Origin: Pseudomonadales bacterium
Lineage (GTDB): Bacteria; Pseudomonadota; Gammaproteobacteria; Pseudomonadales; DT-91
Length of the DNA: 64,000 nt
Assembly: GCA_013215055.1 (NCBI GenBank)
Contig: JABSRQ010000020.1
Span: forward strand, 1-64,000
Direction of reading: 5' to 3'
Each line of letters begins with the position of its first letter. Position 1 is the stretch's first letter. The notes under the pieces are model-generated. The model was not told the origin of the DNA. It saw nothing but the letters and a program-made list of their open reading frames with translations, and did not search any database. This document shows positions 50,022 through 61,732 of the stretch, piece after piece. The position numbers were made by a program, and so were the translations under genes.

Positions 50022-50149
50022 GCGCCTGTACTTTTTATGACGGAATTAGCTGGATTGCACTTACTTCACAAAGCAGAGCGTAGCATCTATTCAATAATGT
50101 AATTCTTTCATATAATTAGAGTTGGATGAAACCACTTCATGGAATATTT

Positions 50150-50845
50150 ATGCCACCCCTGCAGCACATCATTTTCAGCTTATGTTTAATTTCAGGTTTA
50201 TTGTTAAGCAGTGCTTGTTCTACAAACACGGTACTGGAAGACAAGCCTTCCTCCCCTGAACAGCAAGCTGCCGATACATTTACCATCGAAAATAACATAA
50301 AAGGCGACCAAGACTCTGAAAGCCTTGTAGCTACTGATCCTGCAGAGAATGACAAAAATAACGAAAAAGAATCCGTCGATGCTGGCGATAAAAGCAATGA
50401 TATCGACAATGACGGCAGATCAAACACCAAAGACCAGTGCCCAGAGACTCTGGCCTATGTGCCTGTCGATAAGAATGGCTGCCCGCAGGAGCGCTTCTCA
50501 TTAATCGTTGAATTTAAGTCTGAGATTTTCAGAATTGAAGAGCTAGAAGGCAATCCCGTATTCCCGGTCGTGGCCTTCATGAAAAAAAATCCTCAGTACG
50601 ATATTTTCCTGACCGGCCTCGTTGAAACAGCTGAAGGCCCCTACTTCGATCAACGTTTATCTGAAAAGCGGGCTCGTGATGCCAGCGACTATCTTGTTGG
50701 ACAAGGGGTTAGAGAGCCTCGCATCACGCCTGATGCGAGAATGACGTCGCCCATGGCGACAGAGGAATCTCCGTTAGGAGAATCTCAGAATCGCCGCCTG
50801 AAGATTGAATTTGTTAAAATCTTCGATGATTCCATGATCAAATAA
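50150..50845 (+). CDS. OmpA-domain lipoprotein with thrombospondin type 3 repeat
   Basis: The product (about 231 aa) has a signal peptide with the lipobox LLSSAC, an acidic Asp/Glu/Asn-rich linker (about 25-80), one calcium-binding type 3 repeat (DIDNDGRSNTKDQCPETL) ending VPVDKNGCP, and an OmpA-like domain (VEFKSEIFRIEEL...QRLSEKRARDASDYL..SQNRRLKIEF). The usual peptidoglycan-binding Asp in the GHTDxxG loop reads GLVETAEG, so its cell-wall binding may be altered; the RR near the end remains. The ATG at 50150 gives a proper signal peptide; an earlier ATG at 50126 is possible. A TATAAT lies at 50111. It begins the surface locus that ends with the giant lipoprotein. Confidence 0.8.
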   Translation: MPPLQHIIFSLCLISGLLLSSACSTNTVLEDKPSSPEQQAADTFTIENNIKGDQDSESLVATDPAENDKNNEKESVDAGDKSNDIDNDGRSNTKDQCPETLAYVPVDKNGCPQERFSLIVEFKSEIFRIEELEGNPVFPVVAFMKKNPQYDIFLTGLVETAEGPYFDQRLSEKRARDASDYLVGQGVREPRITPDARMTSPMATEESPLGESQNRRLKIEFVKIFDDSMIK

Positions 50846-51014
50846 GCCCTTCTAAGCCACCCTACCTTGATGTAAGCCGTTATATTTTCCTGATCTAACA
50901 GCAATTATCTACTGCCTGGCTTCACAGACAACTCTGGCCAAGATGAGACAACACTCGGATTACGCTATTTTTATAACCGGCAGGTAAAACTTCTGATAGC
51001 CTACACGTTGAAAA
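50846..51014. other. Intergenic, nothing recognised
   Basis: Spacer between the OmpA-like lipoprotein gene and the decayed duplicate of its end. No signal seen. Confidence 0.4.
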
Positions 51015-51159
51015 ATGTCAGAAAAACGTAGCAGAAAAAACCATGACGACCTGATAAAACATCGAGCCAAAGAACCTAAAATCACACCACATGCCAGAAT
51101 TGTCCTTTCATGAAAAAAATCGCCGTTTAAAGATGCTGTTTGTTAAGATCAGCAAATAA
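51015..51159 (+). pseudogene. Decayed duplicate of the OmpA-domain lipoprotein's C terminus
   Basis: From an ATG at 51015 the frame reads MSEKRSRKNHDDLI, KEPKITPHARI, then stops; after a frame change HEKNRRLKMLFVKISK follows to TAA 51157-51159. It aligns with LSEKRARDASDYL, REPRITPDARM and SQNRRLKIEFVKIF of the gene just upstream. The segment is therefore a relic of a tandem duplication of that gene; the rest of the copy is lost. Confidence 0.8.
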
Positions 51160-51413
51160 ATTCTCAATGTTTCTGTCTGCCCCCCCCTAACAACCCTATT
51201 CAGGGGCTCCTCCCTATTGAAAAAATCACTGACATTATCTAAAATCACCTAGCTATCAATTTTGAGTTCTTATTCACATAAAACGCCATCATCAGGTGAA
51301 TAAAGCTCAAACCGAGAGTTTGGATTGAACAGGATGTCAGCCATTTTTTCAAAGTCTTCCTTTTCTCTATTTCAGCCTAGCAAGTAGTACTCATTCATAC
51401 TTAGGGTTTTACC
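51160..51413. promoter_or_regulatory. Upstream region of the OmpA-like barrel gene
   Basis: 250 bp without a gene. It presumably holds the promoter of the barrel protein and giant lipoprotein genes. No operator was recognised; a C-run stands at 51180-51187. Confidence 0.4.
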
Positions 51414-52619
51414 ATGAAAAAGTTTTTCCTTCTTAGCCTATGTTCTTATACTTTGGCCATGCCACTATGTGCAGAAGAAAGCTCAGAGTTCACTGAAAAA
51501 GAAAAAAAGAAAGACACATACCGTGTGCAGGAACCTGCCGATAAAATTTATCTGGACACACTTTCCTTTAAACTGGGGCTTTCACAAACCAGCCCCGATA
51601 TTCGCGAAACTAACGGTAGCATCGCGGGTATAGCAGCCCCTGAGGAGCAAGGCACAACATACAGCCTCAGCGCGGTATTCAATAATGAATATATGCCCTT
51701 TTTAAAACCCTATATTGAATATGCACGCATCAATTATGATGACAGAAACTTCAGTATCTATAGCCTGGGACTTAGACATGACCGCTTTATTAACGATGCA
51801 CAATCCTGGGAATGGTTTATTTCAGGAGGATTAGGTCGTGGTTATTCTCACTGGACCAACAGCCCTGCCCCCGCGGCGGCTTCAGGTGTAGCCGGTGATG
51901 AAAGTGTTACGGCCACGTTTCAAACCGGTTTAGATTGGTATTTCACACCCAGTTGGGCAATAGATATGACCCTGCGTTATGACCTGTATGATATGGATAC
52001 CACCGTGGTACAAAACTCTCAGGTCACCACCATCAGCGATGGTGAATCACTCAGCGCCTTAGTGGGCATCGTTTATCGCTTTGGTCAGCGCAGCCGCCAA
52101 GATCAACGAGATAACGATGGTGATGGCGTACCTAACTATCTGGATCGCTGTTCCAACACGCTAGAGAACGTGCCGGTGAATGGTAGAGGCTGCCCACAAG
52201 AAAGCTTTATGTTTAATCTGTCTTTTGAATTTGCTCAATTTAAAGTTGAGAATATGGTGGATAAACCCAGCTTCAAAGTGGTCGAGTTTTTACAAAGCAA
52301 CCCGGAATACTCCGTGCATATTAATGGTTATGCCGATAATACAGGCGGCACCGTGGTTAACAAAAAACTCTCTTATCGTCGTGCTAAAGCCGCTGCAGAT
52401 AAGTTAATCGAAAACGGTATTGCCTCTGAACGTTTAAGCTATGAAGGCAAGGGCCAGAAATACCAGTGGACCGATAATGACAGCAAGGCTAGCCGTGAAC
52501 AAAATCGCCGTATAGAAGCCATCTTCTATAAAGCCGGCTCACGCTCGTCCCTCATTGAACGTAGAGAAGAAAAGCCTGTAACCGTTGTAACACCCGCCAA
52601 GACTGAAACTCAGGAGTAA
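51414..52619 (+). CDS. OmpA-family outer membrane protein with type 3 repeat
   Basis: A 401-aa protein with signal peptide (MPLCA/EES cleavage likely), an N-terminal beta-barrel of about 200 residues (strands such as FKLGLSQTSPDI, TYSLSAVFNNEY, FISGGLGRGYSHW, LSALVGIVYRFG), a calcium-type repeat DNDGDGVPNYLDRCSNTL with VPVNGRGCP, and an OmpA-like peptidoglycan-binding domain: VHINGYADNTGGTVVNKKLSYRRAKAAAD with the key Asp, and REQNRRIEAIF with the key Arg. It anchors the outer membrane to the wall. It is the second gene of the locus and ends 5 bp before the giant lipoprotein gene, so the two are cotranscribed. Confidence 0.9.
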   Translation: MKKFFLLSLCSYTLAMPLCAEESSEFTEKEKKKDTYRVQEPADKIYLDTLSFKLGLSQTSPDIRETNGSIAGIAAPEEQGTTYSLSAVFNNEYMPFLKPYIEYARINYDDRNFSIYSLGLRHDRFINDAQSWEWFISGGLGRGYSHWTNSPAPAAASGVAGDESVTATFQTGLDWYFTPSWAIDMTLRYDLYDMDTTVVQNSQVTTISDGESLSALVGIVYRFGQRSRQDQRDNDGDGVPNYLDRCSNTLENVPVNGRGCPQESFMFNLSFEFAQFKVENMVDKPSFKVVEFLQSNPEYSVHINGYADNTGGTVVNKKLSYRRAKAAADKLIENGIASERLSYEGKGQKYQWTDNDSKASREQNRRIEAIFYKAGSRSSLIERREEKPVTVVTPAKTETQE

Positions 52620-52624
52620 TCGCC

Positions 52625-55600
52625 ATGCCATTAAAGACGATTTTTCTCGCTTTATTCTGCAGCCTTTTTTTATGGGGCTGTAGCAATAAAGAAGGGGCAC
52701 TATTTGCCGTAACCAATAACGGCACGCTAACCATAGAACCCGGCACAAGCAGCATTCATAAAGGCACAACCCAGGCCTATAGAGCCTTTATGATTGATAA
52801 AGACGGTGTGCGCAGTGAAGTCACCCATGAAGCCGTTTGGGTCTCCAGCAATGCCCCCATTGCCAGTATTGATGATACGGGTTTAGCGACAGCTTTAAGC
52901 GCTGGGAAAACACAGATAAAGGCCAGCTTTTCTAGCCTGGAGGCACAGGCTGATTTACAGGTATTTGAACAGGCCATTCAATCCATCAGTGTATCCCCTG
53001 CAGAAAGTCTGTCCTTGGTGGGGCTGCAAAATCAGTTCACCGCAACGGCAGTCTGTGCCGATGGTTCTCAACAAGATGTGACGAATTTCTCTACCTGGAG
53101 CTCAGCTAACCCAGCCATTGCGACCATTGGCAGTGATGGTATATCTACAGCTGTTGCACCCGGTATAAGCAATATTATCGCCAGCTTTAACAATGCATCC
53201 GGCACGGCACAGTTAGCCGTCAGTGAATCTGCCCCCAAGGCTTTAATACTGCAAGCTAACCCACTCGTACTTCCCCTGGGCAGCAGTGAGAATATGCAAG
53301 CCTTGTTAATACTGGAAAATAACCGACAAATTGATGTGAGCGAACAAGTCAGCTGGGACATGCTTGATAGCAGTATCGCCACGGTAGACAATAACAGCGG
53401 CAATAAAGGTTTTATTGAAAGCAAAAAAATCGGAACCACCACGGTAAATGCCAACTTAACCTTTGCCGGATCAATATTCACAGCCAATGCCTCCGTCCAA
53501 GTAAGAAGCGCCGAGGGATTAACCCTTACCCTCAATCCCCAAAGTTTAACCTTAGCCAAAGGCGCCACAGGCCAATTCCGCGTATTTGCCCAATTTGGTG
53601 AAAGCAGCACTTTTGAAGTAACCAACGATGCCAAGTGGTTGGTTGAAGATACCAACATTGCAAGCATTGGCTACACCGGTAATAACGGCGGTCTGGCCAC
53701 AGGATTAAATACAGGTAGTACACGCATACAGGCCAGTTTTGCTGGCAAAGATATTACTGCAGAGCTTATTATCAGCGATGCCCTGATCACCCATATACAA
53801 ATCACCCCCAGTCGTCTTTCTTTAGCCAAGGGCACCAGTGCACAATTAAATGCCAAGGCATATTATAGCGATGGCAGCTCCACAGATATCACTTCCCTTA
53901 GCAGCTGGGTTTCAGCCTCACCGGCCATACTGCATATTGAAACGGGCACTACCGATGCAGGCCTTGCCACAGGTGTTAGCGAAGGTTTAACACAGGTCAA
54001 AGCCAGCTATTTGGGTTTTGAAAGCACGATTGCAGCCACTGTCACCTCCAATGTCATCAAAGATTTACAAATTACGCCACAAAATGCCGAAGTGGCTAAT
54101 GGATTAAACATAAGCTATCAGGCCAGCGCCATTTATAGCGACGGCTCTGTGGTTGATGTCACGTTGGATGTCGCATGGGCATCACTTGACCCCGTCATTG
54201 TCAGCATCATAAGTGGTGGTTCCAACAGCGGTTTGGCTACCGCCCATACGGTAAACCATACCAGCATAACCGCTACGTTTGATGGCATCACCCGCAGCAC
54301 AGACATCACCGTGACTAATGCAACAGTTGCCAGTCTCGACATAGAACCCACCAATATCACCACCGCTGCTGGCATCATCACACAATATTCAGCCTTTGCC
54401 ACATTAAGCAACGGCCAACGACTCGATGTGAGTCGTCAGACTTTTTGGAGCAGCTCTAAAACCGACGTCGCCGAAATTATTGCCACAGGTACTCAGGCAG
54501 GTTTGGCTACGGCTTTAACTGCTGGCACCACTGAAATAACTGCAAGTTTTTCTGGCCAGATGGCAAGCACACCATTAACCGTGACAGATGCAAGCATTAT
54601 CCAGCTAATGATCGCGCCACTGAATACAGAAATCATCGTCAGTACCACGGCACAATACTCGGCCACGGCAATATTAAGCGATGGCAGTCAACACGATGTG
54701 ACTACACAAGTCAGCTGGACAACAGAAAATCACAGCATTGTCCAGATCGATAGCCTTGGCCTTGCAACCGGTCTCAGCAAAGGCTCTAGCAACGTTATAG
54801 CCAGTTATATCGATTTAAATCTTAGCGCTACCACAACACTCACCGTGACAGGGCCAGAAAAACCTCTTTCATATATAGACCTGAATCCGGTATCGGCCAC
54901 CGTCTTAATTAACAGTACAAAACAGTATACCGCTACCGCCGTTTTTGAAGACGGCAGTAAACAGGATGTGACGGATGATGTGCATTGGTCCAGTGCCAAT
55001 CAAAGGCTCGCCATTATTAGCGGTACTGGCTTAGCTGTTGGTGTGAGTGCGGGGGTGACTAAAATACGGGCAAGCGCCACCTATTTTGGCATCAGCTACT
55101 CATCACAAATACAGCTAACAGTAGAGGCTCCGACGGCTGTTATTACTGCCATACAAGTGTTGCCCAATGATACCGCCATTCTTATAGGTGCAAGCCAGAG
55201 CTATATAGCCGAGGCAGTTCTTAGCAGCGGAGTGAAGATTGATGTGACAGATCAAGTCATCTGGACATCGTCTGATAACAGTGTTGCCAATATCAATAGC
55301 GATGCTATCGCTAAAGGGCTGAGCGACGGCGTTATCACCATCAGTGCTGATCTTACTTATGCAGGGAGTGATTACCATGGCGAAGCCCAATTAACCGTCT
55401 TATCCCCCAGCATTACTATCGATAAAATTGTATTAGAGCCCTTTAACAGCCGTATTATTGAAGGCGATACACTTGGCTATAGTGCGACAGCTTATCTTAG
55501 TGACAAAACTGAAGTTGATGTAAGCAGCTATGTTATCTGGCAAAGCAATCATCCTGAATTTTCCACTATAGAGATGAATGGAGACGCTACGGGTATTGCA

Positions 55601-58600
55601 GAAGGTAGCAGCGATATTTCTGCCAGCTTGTTATATCAAGGTCTGACTTATAACAGTGAGCGGGCAGTTTTAACCGTCGTTGCAGCCACCACCGTGAATA
55701 ACATTGTTGTAACACCTAGAAATAAACATATTCAGGTAAAAGAGACCCTGCAATATCAGGCCTATGCTCTATTAAGTGATAGTAGCATTGTAGAAATACA
55801 CAATGGTAGTGGTGTTAACCTTATTTGGTCTGCAGATAACAGCTTGGTCAACATTAATACTAACGGCCTAGCTCTAGCTACAGATGCAGGTATCTCCCCT
55901 ATCACTGCAACTGTTACCTACAACAGTCAAACCTATAGCAACAGCACTGAATTAACGATTGCCTCCCCGCCAGCAACAATTACTGAGATTCAAATCACAC
56001 CGGCAGTCAGTCATATTTTAATCGGCACAACACAGGCCTATAGAGCGACCGCCATTCTCACTGATGGTACTAAGCTGGATATTACCGATGAATCCACCTG
56101 GACATCTAATAATGAAGCTGTAGCTACCATAGATAGCTCAGCAATTGCTACTGCTAACAATGCAGGGCAGGCCGATATAACGGTAAATTTCAGTAATGAA
56201 ACTGGTAATTATTCATCCACCGCTAGTCTAACCGTACTGCCATTAGCGATAACATTGAATAAAATCGTCATTGAACCTTTCTCCATTCAATTACTGGAAG
56301 GCCATACACAGCAATACAAAGCCATTGCCTACCTCAGTGATGGCAGTTCACAAGATATCACTCAGCATGTTAACTGGCAGTCTTCGTTCCCATCCATTGC
56401 CAGTATAGATATCGATACAGGCATGGCTACAGCAATTGCTGCCAACGCTGCCGCTACCGAAATCACCGCCACATTAGATTATGACGGCCAGAGTTATAAT
56501 AGTGAGCGAGCCGCCTTAACTGTAATAGCCCCTGCAGACATACAAGGTATTGTTATAGGGCCTCGCAATGCCAATATATTAGCCTCAATAACACAGCAAT
56601 ATGTGGCTTATGCGATATTGACTGACTTCTCTCAGATTGATATTACTCATGTTGTAAGCTGGAGCAGTAGCGCATCTCAATTTGCAACTATAGATAGCAC
56701 GGGTCTGGCAACAGGTATCAGTGCCGGTGATACAACTATTAGTGCTGACTATAGTGAGGGTGGATCTAACTTCAGTGATGGGACGCTGCTCACCGTAGAG
56801 GCTTCCGCCATCACCATTCAATCAATGAAGGTCACGCCGCCCTCAGCCTCAGCTTTGGTTAATGGTTATCAACAATACAGAGCTGACATTACCTTATCCA
56901 ATGGAAGATCTGTTGATGTCACCAGCAATGTCACCTGGACAGTAGCTGAATCAACAATCGCCAGCATTACCCAATTAGGACTTGCCAAAGGCTTGGCTGA
57001 AGGTAAATCAGAAGTCATTGCAACGTTTGTTTACCAAGGAGAAATGACCGATGCCAATACTCTCTTTACTGTCATAGCACCCACAATTGAAGACATCAAA
57101 ATTGCACCACATAAGGCGATGATTCTTAAAAATGATGAGCAACAGTATATCGCCACGGCCCTACTCAGTGATGGGACAAAAGTCGATATTACACAGATGG
57201 TTAATTGGAGTAGTAGCAATACGGCATCCGTAAATATTAACAGCAAAGGTATTGCCACAGGCACGGATGTAGGCCTCAGTGATATCAGCGCAAAATTAAG
57301 CTACGAGGGCAGCGACTATGACAGTAATATTGCAAAACTGACGGTGATCAATGCTATCAACAACATTCAAATCACACCGAATGCGCCTACGATTGTAGAG
57401 GGCACCACCCAGCAATTTACCGCAACGGCAATTTTAACTGACTTAAGCCAGGTTGATATTACCGATCTGGTTTACTGGAAAGTGGTAAATTTCAACATCG
57501 CAAGCATCGAACAAACGGGTCTGGCTACTGGCATACTTGCCGGCACTACAGATATTACTATCGCTCTTAGCTATCAAGGTACGGAGTATAACGATACTGA
57601 AACCCTGCACGTTCAAGTAGCACCCGTGGTTGATGATTTTTACATCACCCCAGGAACTAACAATATACTTGTGGGTGAATTACATCAGTTAACCGCCACC
57701 CTGGTCTTCGACAATGGCACTACACAAGATGTTACCGTTGAGGCCAGCTGGGTTTCCGATGATACAACTATCGCGCCCATGCAAAATAACCAAGGCCTGG
57801 TTTTTGGTTTAGGTGAAGGCAGCACTCATATCAACGCCTCCATCAATATTGATGGCAATACTCATACGGCTACGGCCAGTATAGATGTCCGCACACTGCC
57901 CTTATTCCCCAACATCATCATCGAACCCTCATTTGTAAACATGCCCGCTGGCACAACAAAACAAATGCGCTCCTATGTCGTCACGGATGATGGCACACGT
58001 TATGACACCACCCATATTTCACGGTGGGCCATGGGAGATGAAAGCATTGCAGAAATCAGCGCAACAGGCCTGGTGACGACTCATAAAAAGGGCACTACCA
58101 TCATCAATGCAAGCATTGAAAACCAAGGAACAAGCGCCAATCTTTATGTAAAAGAACCTGACTCGGGCCTGGATTCGGTTAAATTTACGCCTACCCAATC
58201 CACGTTATTAATTGGCGATACACAGCAATTTACCGCTACAGCCTTTTTGAATGATGGCACTCAAATGGATGTTACCGATAATGCCAATACACAATGGACA
58301 AGTTTTGATACGGACATTGCCGACTTTATCAGCACAGCAGGTCTTTTAACGGCTATCAGTCAAGGCACGGTAACAACTAGAGGATTCTATACAGCCTCAC
58401 CCAACTGGATGGGTAACTCCAAGGTTGTGGTGAAAACACCTGATTTAGCCATTGATGAAATTATCATTGTGCCGGAAGACGCGCTACTGCTTTTAGGCAC
58501 CACACGACAATACCGCGCCTATGCATTGATGTCTGATGGTACACAAGTTGAAATAACCCAAAATGCCGCCTGGTCGGTGGCTAATAGCCTGATTGTTGAA

Positions 58601-61600
58601 CCTCAAAATACCACAGGCTTGTTATTAGGACGCTCCATTGGCTCAACCTCTGTAAAAGTGGTTTACGATTATCAAGGCACAGCATTCAGCAGCGAAACGC
58701 AGATCTTTGTTATCGATAGCGCACCTAGTTTCCTGGAAGTTACACCTGCACAGCAAACCTTGTCGGTTAATGAAAGCCATCAATACACGGCCATATTACA
58801 TATGGAAAATGGCCAAATACTGGATGTCACAGCCACCTGTGTGTGGGCTGTTGATGAAGAGACTCGCGCCCATATCGACAATACCCCGGGTAATACAGGT
58901 CTATTAACCACGCTTGCGGTGGGTGATGTTATCGTCACTGCCAACTTCAAGGGCCAGCTGGCTCAAACCGCCAAACTCACGGTCAGTGATGCCACGGTTG
59001 CCTCTATCCAGGTCACCCCCGCCGATGCGATATTCCCACAGGGCTCACGTGAGACCTATACGGCCATTGCTTATTATTCCGATAATAGCTTTAAAGATAT
59101 CAGCCATCAGGCCGTGTGGATTAGTGGCGATACAGGCATTGCCGATGTGCATATAGAAACCGACCGGGAAGGCGCTATTGTCACCGGCATCGACGCGGGT
59201 ACAACAACCATTACCGCCCGCTATCAAGGCCAGGAGAATACCGTACCGGTAACAATCACAGCGGCCACGTTAGATACAATCATCGTAACGCCCCTGAACG
59301 CCGTCAGGAATCAAGAAAATAGCCTGCAATATACCGCCACGGGCATCTACTCGGATCTATCGACGGCCGATATCACCGATGCGGTTACCTGGTCCAGCTC
59401 TGTCACTGATGTTGCCCGCATTGAAGACACAGGCCTGGCTCATACCCGCAAGCTTGGAGAAACCCAAATTCAAGCCTCATTAGAAACTGAAACCGGCACG
59501 ATTAGCGCGGCAACCACGTTAACCGTTATTGCCCCTACATTATTGCAATTGCGTATTGAACCACAGGAAATATTGGATCTTCCCGTGGGTAATATCAGGC
59601 AACTGACGGCCTATGCCCTGCTCCAGGAAGGCGAATACATCTATGAACTAGACGTAAGCCACGCCTCTGTTTGGTCATCAAGTTCACCGGATTATGTGAG
59701 CGTGAGTAATGCGGATAATCACAAAGGCCGGGTTCAAGCCTTACAACAAGGCTGTGTAACTATTTATGCAAACTATGAAGGTGTAGAAGCCGAGGCCTCC
59801 GTATGCGCCAGCGCGGCCGAATTACTATCCATAGATATCACCCCAAAGGATCAAAGCATTGCCACTCATTCCAGCTTGGAATATAGCGCTTCGGGTACAT
59901 TCAGCGATGACAGGATTGAAGATATCACCGCCGATGTCACGTGGATCAGCGATAACTCGGCCGTGGCGACCATTAATGAAAATGCCCTGGCCGAGGGTAT
60001 TACCGAGGGTACCACAACGATTATCGCCAGTTATCAGGGCATAACGACCTCAACCTCGTTGACGGTCACCGGCGATCCCATCACCCAGATGTGGATCACC
60101 CCCTATACCGGCGAATTCCCGGTAGGCACGCAAGGGCAGCTCAGAGCTCACGCCCTATTTACCAGCGGTTCTCAAAGAGACGTCACCGATGAGGTTGAAT
60201 GGCTTTCACAAACCCCAGCCACACTCTATGTGAATAACAGCCCAGGATCTAAAGGTATAAGCGAAGCACTGGCTGTGGGTCAGGCAGATGTTATTGTCAC
60301 TCATAAAAACTATGACGATGTTAACTTGGGCCCAATTACCGCTGAATTTACCATTACCGCAGCGAGCCTAGTGGAAATTCAGGTTCTGCCTTTTAATCAA
60401 GAAATGTCCAAGGGGCTGCATCAACAATACATCGCTATCGGAAAATACAATAATCAAACACACCATGTGCTTAGCGATCAAGTCGTCTGGCACAGCAGCG
60501 ACCTCAATACGGCGTTTATTAATCATTCGGGCATGCTTAGCGCCAGAACAGAAGGCACGGCGACCATCAGCGCCAGCCTGGATGGCGTCACCGGTCAAAC
60601 AGAGGTGACCGTCACTGCCGTAGCCGTTAAAAGCCTGAGCTTAAGCCCTTATGAAGAAAGCTTACATGTAGGCACTCATCTGTCATTAAAGGCCATCGCC
60701 GTGATGACGGATAACAGCATCGAAGATGTCACGTTAGACAGTCAATGGATGAATAACAGCCCTTCTATTCTTGGCTTAACCGATATCGGTGACGATAAGG
60801 GCCAAATACAAGGCTTAACCACAGGTACGGGGAATATTGCCATACGTTATGCCGAAACCAGTCAGGCAAAAATATGGCAGGCGAATTCAGATTATATCGT
60901 CTCCGAAGATGCAACAGCACCCACTGGCATTCGCATTGAACCGGACAATATCAGCTTGCCTGTAGGCACTAGCCGCCTCTATAAAGCCTATGCTATTTAT
61001 CCTGACTTCGAACAAGACATCTCCGATGATGTGAAATGGAAATCGTCCAGCCAAAATGTAGCCTCCATCAATGCCCAGGGAGACATAAAGACCCACAATA
61101 CTGGCGCAACCACCGTCAGTGCGGATTGGAACGAGATGAACATGCGTGGGGAAACTAATCTAACGGTTATTCCTGCAACCATTGATCATATAGAAGTCAC
61201 ACCTGTAGATGTGGTACTGGATTTGGCTGAGAGCCATAGATATCTCTGTGAAGCGGTGATGAGCAATGGCGATAGATATGATATCACCAAGGATGTTGAC
61301 TGGACCTCATCCGATAGGCTGGTTGCGACCATTATCTATGCAGGCATTGATACCGGCAAAGCCTTTTCATGGGGATTTGGGCAAACAACCATTACCGCAC
61401 GTTACGATAATGCAGGAGTGATATTGGAAGACAGCGTGCCATTGAATGTCACGCCAAAATCACTGCTACGCATAGACATAGAACCAGCGTCACACACAAT
61501 GGCTGTTGATAATAAAAAGCAGTTCCAGGCTTTTGCTGTTTATCAAAGCGGCGCCAGGATTATTGTCACCGTTTTAGCCACATGGGATAGCGCCAATAAA

Positions 61601-61732
61601 GACATAGCTGTTGTTGATAACGGCGGAATCTTTAAAGGCCGCGCTACAGCAGAGGCTGCTGGAACCGTTCAGATCCAAGCCACCTACCACAATGTCACAG
61701 GCTCAGCGGAATTAACCGTCACGTCGCCTTAG
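52625..61732 (+). CDS. Giant lipoprotein with about 33 Ig-like (Big_2-type) domains
   Basis: A 3035-aa protein with a signal peptide and lipobox LFLWGC (Cys19, followed by Ser, suiting outer-membrane sorting). The whole mature part is a chain of ~90-residue bacterial Ig-like domains. Each shows the same pattern: (I)xxI.I.P....l..G.t.qy.A.a...DGs..DvT..v.W.SS....a.I...GlatGls.G.t.I.As. I count 33 by the DVT..W signature (for example DVTDDVHW, DITDAVTW, DITKDVDW). Domains are diverged, not identical. There is no T1SS signal, LPXTG or autotransporter barrel at the C-terminus (ends ELTVTSP). It probably forms a long surface rod or adhesin with its OmpA-like partners. RBS is the GGAG at the end of the upstream gene. 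Confidence 0.93.
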   Translation: MPLKTIFLALFCSLFLWGCSNKEGALFAVTNNGTLTIEPGTSSIHKGTTQAYRAFMIDKDGVRSEVTHEAVWVSSNAPIASIDDTGLATALSAGKTQIKASFSSLEAQADLQVFEQAIQSISVSPAESLSLVGLQNQFTATAVCADGSQQDVTNFSTWSSANPAIATIGSDGISTAVAPGISNIIASFNNASGTAQLAVSESAPKALILQANPLVLPLGSSENMQALLILENNRQIDVSEQVSWDMLDSSIATVDNNSGNKGFIESKKIGTTTVNANLTFAGSIFTANASVQVRSAEGLTLTLNPQSLTLAKGATGQFRVFAQFGESSTFEVTNDAKWLVEDTNIASIGYTGNNGGLATGLNTGSTRIQASFAGKDITAELIISDALITHIQITPSRLSLAKGTSAQLNAKAYYSDGSSTDITSLSSWVSASPAILHIETGTTDAGLATGVSEGLTQVKASYLGFESTIAATVTSNVIKDLQITPQNAEVANGLNISYQASAIYSDGSVVDVTLDVAWASLDPVIVSIISGGSNSGLATAHTVNHTSITATFDGITRSTDITVTNATVASLDIEPTNITTAAGIITQYSAFATLSNGQRLDVSRQTFWSSSKTDVAEIIATGTQAGLATALTAGTTEITASFSGQMASTPLTVTDASIIQLMIAPLNTEIIVSTTAQYSATAILSDGSQHDVTTQVSWTTENHSIVQIDSLGLATGLSKGSSNVIASYIDLNLSATTTLTVTGPEKPLSYIDLNPVSATVLINSTKQYTATAVFEDGSKQDVTDDVHWSSANQRLAIISGTGLAVGVSAGVTKIRASATYFGISYSSQIQLTVEAPTAVITAIQVLPNDTAILIGASQSYIAEAVLSSGVKIDVTDQVIWTSSDNSVANINSDAIAKGLSDGVITISADLTYAGSDYHGEAQLTVLSPSITIDKIVLEPFNSRIIEGDTLGYSATAYLSDKTEVDVSSYVIWQSNHPEFSTIEMNGDATGIAEGSSDISASLLYQGLTYNSERAVLTVVAATTVNNIVVTPRNKHIQVKETLQYQAYALLSDSSIVEIHNGSGVNLIWSADNSLVNINTNGLALATDAGISPITATVTYNSQTYSNSTELTIASPPATITEIQITPAVSHILIGTTQAYRATAILTDGTKLDITDESTWTSNNEAVATIDSSAIATANNAGQADITVNFSNETGNYSSTASLTVLPLAITLNKIVIEPFSIQLLEGHTQQYKAIAYLSDGSSQDITQHVNWQSSFPSIASIDIDTGMATAIAANAAATEITATLDYDGQSYNSERAALTVIAPADIQGIVIGPRNANILASITQQYVAYAILTDFSQIDITHVVSWSSSASQFATIDSTGLATGISAGDTTISADYSEGGSNFSDGTLLTVEASAITIQSMKVTPPSASALVNGYQQYRADITLSNGRSVDVTSNVTWTVAESTIASITQLGLAKGLAEGKSEVIATFVYQGEMTDANTLFTVIAPTIEDIKIAPHKAMILKNDEQQYIATALLSDGTKVDITQMVNWSSSNTASVNINSKGIATGTDVGLSDISAKLSYEGSDYDSNIAKLTVINAINNIQITPNAPTIVEGTTQQFTATAILTDLSQVDITDLVYWKVVNFNIASIEQTGLATGILAGTTDITIALSYQGTEYNDTETLHVQVAPVVDDFYITPGTNNILVGELHQLTATLVFDNGTTQDVTVEASWVSDDTTIAPMQNNQGLVFGLGEGSTHINASINIDGNTHTATASIDVRTLPLFPNIIIEPSFVNMPAGTTKQMRSYVVTDDGTRYDTTHISRWAMGDESIAEISATGLVTTHKKGTTIINASIENQGTSANLYVKEPDSGLDSVKFTPTQSTLLIGDTQQFTATAFLNDGTQMDVTDNANTQWTSFDTDIADFISTAGLLTAISQGTVTTRGFYTASPNWMGNSKVVVKTPDLAIDEIIIVPEDALLLLGTTRQYRAYALMSDGTQVEITQNAAWSVANSLIVEPQNTTGLLLGRSIGSTSVKVVYDYQGTAFSSETQIFVIDSAPSFLEVTPAQQTLSVNESHQYTAILHMENGQILDVTATCVWAVDEETRAHIDNTPGNTGLLTTLAVGDVIVTANFKGQLAQTAKLTVSDATVASIQVTPADAIFPQGSRETYTAIAYYSDNSFKDISHQAVWISGDTGIADVHIETDREGAIVTGIDAGTTTITARYQGQENTVPVTITAATLDTIIVTPLNAVRNQENSLQYTATGIYSDLSTADITDAVTWSSSVTDVARIEDTGLAHTRKLGETQIQASLETETGTISAATTLTVIAPTLLQLRIEPQEILDLPVGNIRQLTAYALLQEGEYIYELDVSHASVWSSSSPDYVSVSNADNHKGRVQALQQGCVTIYANYEGVEAEASVCASAAELLSIDITPKDQSIATHSSLEYSASGTFSDDRIEDITADVTWISDNSAVATINENALAEGITEGTTTIIASYQGITTSTSLTVTGDPITQMWITPYTGEFPVGTQGQLRAHALFTSGSQRDVTDEVEWLSQTPATLYVNNSPGSKGISEALAVGQADVIVTHKNYDDVNLGPITAEFTITAASLVEIQVLPFNQEMSKGLHQQYIAIGKYNNQTHHVLSDQVVWHSSDLNTAFINHSGMLSARTEGTATISASLDGVTGQTEVTVTAVAVKSLSLSPYEESLHVGTHLSLKAIAVMTDNSIEDVTLDSQWMNNSPSILGLTDIGDDKGQIQGLTTGTGNIAIRYAETSQAKIWQANSDYIVSEDATAPTGIRIEPDNISLPVGTSRLYKAYAIYPDFEQDISDDVKWKSSSQNVASINAQGDIKTHNTGATTVSADWNEMNMRGETNLTVIPATIDHIEVTPVDVVLDLAESHRYLCEAVMSNGDRYDITKDVDWTSSDRLVATIIYAGIDTGKAFSWGFGQTTITARYDNAGVILEDSVPLNVTPKSLLRIDIEPASHTMAVDNKKQFQAFAVYQSGARIIVTVLATWDSANKDIAVVDNGGIFKGRATAEAAGTVQIQATYHNVTGSAELTVTSP

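Follow-up and report, generated by a model that had tools for sequence, protein, structure and literature searches.

A giant Big_2 lipoprotein encoded directly behind an outer-membrane barrel: a rare two-gene cassette and candidate surface fibre in a gammaproteobacterial order

Introduction

How could a lipoprotein of more than three thousand residues be held at the outer membrane of a gammaproteobacterium, and on which face of that membrane would it lie? The question is raised by a locus of a marine-type bacterium, located in a window of 64,000 nucleotides (the window being the whole stretch of DNA analysed), where the gene for a giant lipoprotein of Ig-like domains directly follows the gene for an outer-membrane barrel. 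By default, gammaproteobacterial outer-membrane lipoproteins sit in the inner leaflet and face the periplasm, which counts against a surface location. According to a survey of fibrillar adhesins, nearly half of them have no recognised anchor (PMC8286594). The initial annotation had proposed a new surface system of three genes with two OmpA-like anchors. The present study reveals instead a pair of genes, barrel and lipoprotein, that recurs in a few related bacteria.

Results

The giant gene (52625..61732, plus strand) encodes a protein of 3035 residues, which begins with a signal peptide followed by the Cys-Ser of a lipobox (Cys19), a tether of ~15 residues and then Ig sandwiches. The Cys19-Ser20 pair is invariant among aligned homologues; in the usual Lol rule, Ser at +2 stands for the outer-membrane side. 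Big_2 was the only family that Pfam recognised (E 1.8e-158). A repeat HMM made from the protein itself resolved exactly 33 contiguous Big_2 domains, in agreement with the initial count of about 33. They tile residues 35-3035, each with E <= 1e-15, and no gap between them exceeds the length of a linker. Neither search recognised an RTX/type 1 secretion end, a barrel or an adhesive tip, and the array reaches the last residue; the earlier view that a type 1 secretion end and an autotransporter barrel are both lacking is thus upheld. The structure prediction suggested at the outset as a check returned Ig sandwiches with high confidence: AlphaFold2 gave the first three domains a mean pLDDT of 87 and left tether residues 15-30 disordered. 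The pI of the protein is 4.3. Since the domains share only 30% identity on average in pairwise comparison (maximum 48%), the array is old and not freshly amplified.

The upstream gene (51414..52619, plus strand) encodes a 401-residue outer-membrane protein, as judged from Pfam (OmpA), AlphaFold2 and foldseek. It comprises a signal peptide, an 8-stranded barrel (~45-222), a D-rich TSP3-like linker (~225-287) and an OmpA domain (~288-370). In the AlphaFold2 model, eight long strands precede an OmpA-type alpha/beta domain; the barrel blocks mostly reach a pLDDT of 68-94, the linker stays below 50, and the overall value of 62 is lowered by signal peptide, linker and tail. Foldseek matched the model to OmpA, NspA and OmpW. 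With its 8-stranded barrel and C-terminal peptidoglycan-binding domain, the protein combines both features of the OmpA family. The ATG of the giant gene lies 5 bp past the barrel gene's stop codon, as the initial annotation had stated. The overlap of the AGGAG ribosome site of the giant gene with that stop codon suggests translational coupling of the lipoprotein gene to the barrel gene. The best promoter-like site of the region, a candidate sigma-70-type promoter of the two-gene unit (51217..51245, plus strand, TTGAAA-17-TAAAAT), lies farther upstream; the total of such sites in the region was not above that in shuffles. Nothing in the leader was credible as a riboswitch or other known RNA.

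The third gene of the initial proposal, for an OmpA-like lipoprotein of 239 residues, is indeed present nearby (50126..50845, plus strand), and the start first given for it, 50150, is its second ATG. Its Pfam OmpA score is barely over the cut-off (27.6 vs 27.2 bits), and Glu replaces the usual Asp in its peptidoglycan-binding motif. Being 33% identical to the linker and OmpA part of 51414-52619, it looks like a partial duplicate of that portion of the barrel protein. When three-gene synteny was checked in the neighbourhoods of other copies of the pair, this lipoprotein was absent beside all those inspected (C456, NORP219, G438, G005 and G002/G004, described below). We therefore rejected a three-gene system with two OmpA anchors, given this absence and the marginal OmpA score, and consider the small lipoprotein a neighbour outside the conserved cassette.

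The link of the giant lipoprotein to the barrel gene fared differently. Strong homologues of the barrel occupy seven places, spread over six assemblies, and immediately behind every one of the seven lies a Big_2 lipoprotein gene. The closest pair is on contig C456 of the same assembly, where the barrel is 87% identical, the lipoprotein gene again follows after 5 bp, and its product, as far as the contig reaches, is colinear with domains 1-19 of the window protein, domain for domain. At the nucleotide level, homology between the two begins at 51211, just upstream of the candidate promoter; farther upstream the neighbourhoods differ. C456 may be a second copy or a second strain, the assembly comprising 7.2 Mb in 460 contigs, with leuA found once at 100% and once at 65%. 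Between the window and C456, dN/dS is 0.12 for the barrel and 0.16 for the lipoprotein. Thus, both proteins are under purifying selection, and the giant frame is neither a product of chance nor a pseudogene. In an Oleispira MAG (NORP219) the barrel is 64% identical and the lipoprotein lies in two frames, with unresolved bases. More distant pairs occur in G438, a member of another family (barrel 42%, 1-nt gene overlap, 7 domains), in G005 (35%, 4-nt overlap, 7 domains), and in G004 and G002 (24% each, 19 domains each), which have a 4-nt overlap and a 12-bp gap, respectively. Across copies, then, the two genes overlap by 1-4 nt or lie at most 12 bp apart, and the number of Big_2 domains ranges from 7 to 33 (7/7/19/33).

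When 391 genomes of the order were searched with a profile, no further barrel emerged at E<=1e-15 except a second, diverged copy in G002/G004, and among 369 genomes across the class the barrel was found in the own genome alone, with nothing beyond the order. Since these searches add almost nothing, the cassette is rare and patchy, the few genera in which it was seen all belonging to one gammaproteobacterial order.

Which parts of the pair are constant? The partner in G002/G004 is a barrel only. The OmpA domain as an essential anchor was consequently rejected, and the barrel, not the OmpA domain, is the constant partner. Hence, of the OmpA partners first proposed, the barrel is retained in every cassette copy, and the OmpA domain is not. 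In every copy seen, barrel and array are encoded by separate genes. G004 and G002 also carry a gene for a 202-residue OMP_b-brl/OmpA_membrane barrel directly behind that for the 19-domain lipoprotein (L046:10757-11365 and L047:10888-11496, both minus strand).

On the side of the lipoprotein, constancy was confined to the membrane end. Domain 1 (52727..52984, plus strand; residues 35-120), the lipid-proximal one, was the reciprocal best match of domain 1 in five of six cassette pairs (0.34 expected by position), a signal drawn from only four diverged lipoproteins whose pairs are not independent. The sole failing pair was the window versus G004. In the control, comprising pairs that involve Big_2 lipoproteins without this barrel partner, domain 1 was reciprocal best in 1 of 49. 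Domain order between the diverged lipoproteins is kept at the membrane end only. A conserved C-terminal tip domain was considered and rejected, as cassette pairs show no increase in last-to-last similarity (mean z -0.29). Because domain 1 alone is positionally conserved and the distal domain has no such signal, these comparisons suggest that domain 1 is the part meeting the conserved barrel.

The pairing is not a general property of either gene family. No Big_2 open reading frame was found within about 1.5 kb of weaker barrel loci, or of ordinary OmpA or OmpW-like loci, from the same searches. Conversely, Big_2-array lipoproteins of the same order stand beside no member of this barrel family in G437 (27 domains), G001 (7) and G019 (6). 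The barrel is therefore a trait of this cassette and not of Big_2 lipoproteins at large, and such arrays do not generally require it. In neighbourhoods of Big_2 lipoproteins of other genera the cassette barrel family was not found, and small PF13505 barrels lie near some, in the own genome and in G437. The latter encodes a giant lipoprotein of 2458 residues and 27 Big_2 domains (L096:8058-15434, plus strand), with a divergent gene for a small barrel of 175 residues upstream and no OmpA partner. In the own genome, contig C428 carries a 5-domain Big_2 lipoprotein gene followed 7 bp later by one for a small PF13505 barrel of 195-207 residues (L011:4573-6742, minus strand), an unrelated pairing. 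The own genome further encodes OmpA-type proteins beside or fused to Asp-rich DSDNDG-type repeats on C442 (L013:69-3913, plus strand) and on C456 (L049:372-2612, minus strand), the latter holding both in one protein of 746 residues.

Discussion

On balance, we favour a two-gene surface-fibre cassette in which the barrel holds the membrane-proximal end of a Big_2 lipoprotein stalk. The upstream gene encodes an 8-stranded outer-membrane barrel that in most copies ends in a peptidoglycan-binding OmpA domain, and the downstream gene, probably translationally coupled, a lipoprotein that is a pure rod of 7 to 33 Big_2 domains. Once Lol transport is complete, lipid and domain 1 may associate with the barrel. 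The barrel would then hold the lipoprotein and possibly help to flip it, leaving the rod to extend outward from the cell. An Ig domain generally measures about 3.5-4.5 nm. At 33 domains, the stalk could thus extend roughly 120-150 nm. The OmpA domain, where present, may share mechanical load with the peptidoglycan as an optional anchoring. The stalk might serve attachment, aggregation or spacing, and, as no dedicated adhesive tip domain was recognised, any binding would be through the Ig domains, in the manner of Lig proteins. We infer surface exposure, the contact between barrel and domain 1 and any role in translocation from the gene pairing and the conserved elements described above.

The array architecture itself is already known. 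Leptospira has the Lig family (LigA, LigB and LigC), of which LigA and LigB are surface-exposed lipoproteins of tandem Big_2 domains; behind ligB come four small genes for predicted lipoproteins (PMC7821625). As in the Lig proteins, the N-terminal lipoprotein signal of the window protein is directly followed by tandem Big_2 domains, with a match in both sequence and fold. The initial statement that the protein is unlike known giant adhesins thus holds for LapA, BapA and intimin, and had overlooked LigA/LigB, which share its array architecture. In contrast to the cassette, with its 7-33 domains and adjoining barrel gene, LigB/LigA have 12-13 Ig-like domains, belong to a spirochaete and have no barrel partner; similarity to Lig is at the domain level only, without orthology. 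It is the pairing of barrel and lipoprotein, therefore, that is the interesting part. Could the window protein nevertheless be simply a fibrillar lipoprotein of the Lig type, reaching the surface alone or by a general route, with the barrel as a local outer-membrane anchor or merely co-expressed? We consider this possible, though on the doubtful side. Foldseek ranks LigA first and, by sequence, LigA is one of the closest solved chains, Lig proteins are surface-exposed with small lipoprotein genes and not a barrel following ligB, and barrel-less Big_2-array lipoproteins do exist in the same order. However, mere co-expression would not lead one to expect a close pairing kept over 24-42% barrel identity, nor a conservation of domain 1 that is specific to the cassette.

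Known systems offer partial precedents for a barrel that holds a lipoprotein. BAM brings the outer-membrane lipoprotein RcsF into complexes with barrels (PMC7857515). With OmpA, the lipoprotein is held by an 8-stranded barrel, which makes the complex a precedent for the cassette pairing. In contrast to the giant protein studied here, RcsF is a small stress sensor, and rcsF does not form a gene pair with ompA. For the giant fibre AtaA of Acinetobacter, TpgA was computed to strengthen the anchor (PMC13082670), so that there, too, a giant surface fibre is paired with an auxiliary protein reinforcing its outer-membrane anchor. However, AtaA, a trimeric autotransporter, brings its own barrel, and TpgA is a periplasmic non-barrel protein, whereas the cassette fibre is lipid-tethered; the NCBIfam TpgA model NF047726 scored 38.9 bits on the OmpA part, against a cut-off of 350, which places this part outside the TpgA type. 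In the searched literature, no paper described an Ig-like/OmpA lipoprotein operon, an absence that is weak evidence.

Taken further, the small barrel might act as a dedicated escort: BAM would assemble barrel and lipoprotein together, domain 1 would be the recognition element, and the giant lipoprotein would reach the surface without Slam or a secretion system. We regard this extension as unlikely. A joining of barrel and lipoprotein is met again in G002 (L084:9336-10376) and G004 (L085:8042-9082), both on the minus strand, where a barrel of the cassette family (105 bits to the barrel profile) forms one protein with a TssJ-type (T6SS-SciN) lipoprotein domain, and we count this recurrence in favour of the cassette model. 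If the escort reading were true, the fusion would show the same barrel module put to a second use. A large protein carrying TcdA_TcdB_pore and PA14 domains is encoded near the fusions, and no other T6SS gene was recognised among their scanned neighbours.

A rod inside the envelope, running along the peptidoglycan and tied to the wall by the OmpA protein, appears quite improbable to us. It would accord with the default topology of lipoproteins and with the peptidoglycan domain present in most copies, and a 7-domain rod, at roughly 25-30 nm, could span the periplasm. However, 33 or 19 domains amount to several periplasm widths, array length varies freely, and the OmpA domain is absent in G002/G004. 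The lengths of 7/7/19/33 domains also argue against a periplasm-spanning ruler.

Export by a Slam protein (PF04575) encoded elsewhere in the genome is a very remote prospect. A Slam system resembles the cassette in that an outer-membrane barrel gene adjoins the gene for a surface lipoprotein, and the own genome encodes, on C409 (L101:706-1965, plus strand), an outer-membrane TPR-barrel-like protein with matches to DUF2860 and SlipAM, the partial PF04575 match being above cut-off. However, this protein scores better to DUF2860, and its gene belongs to a two-component-system locus, with sensor-kinase and response-regulator genes on its flanks. PF04575 was found neither near the cassette nor in the other cassette genomes (G002, G004, G005, G438 and G658), this one weak SlipAM/DUF2860-like protein being the only candidate. 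Moreover, the Slam barrel has 14 strands with TPRs, whereas that of the cassette has 8 and no TPR.

A single-protein adhesin of the LapA/BapA (type 1 secretion) or intimin (inverse autotransporter) kind is scarcely credible despite the giant size and the tandem Ig-like stalk, since Big_2 stands alone in Pfam and runs to the last residue with no C-terminal RTX/secretion end, the N-terminus carries a lipobox, no fused barrel-array or RTX-tailed homologue was seen in the cassette position, and the barrel plus Ig-like stalk that intimin/invasin unite in one polypeptide are here divided between two genes with a lipid anchor.

For the biology of these bacteria, the cassette bears on how a gammaproteobacterial lipoprotein may cross to the outer face of its membrane, for which the known routes (Slam, BAM/RcsF, autotransporter and type II secretion) cover few cases. 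It is compact, its minimal barrel has 8 strands, its natural variants either carry or lack the peptidoglycan domain, and its stalks comprise 7-33 domains. These features make it well suited to testing whether so small a barrel is able to hold, or to deliver, a giant lipoprotein at the surface.
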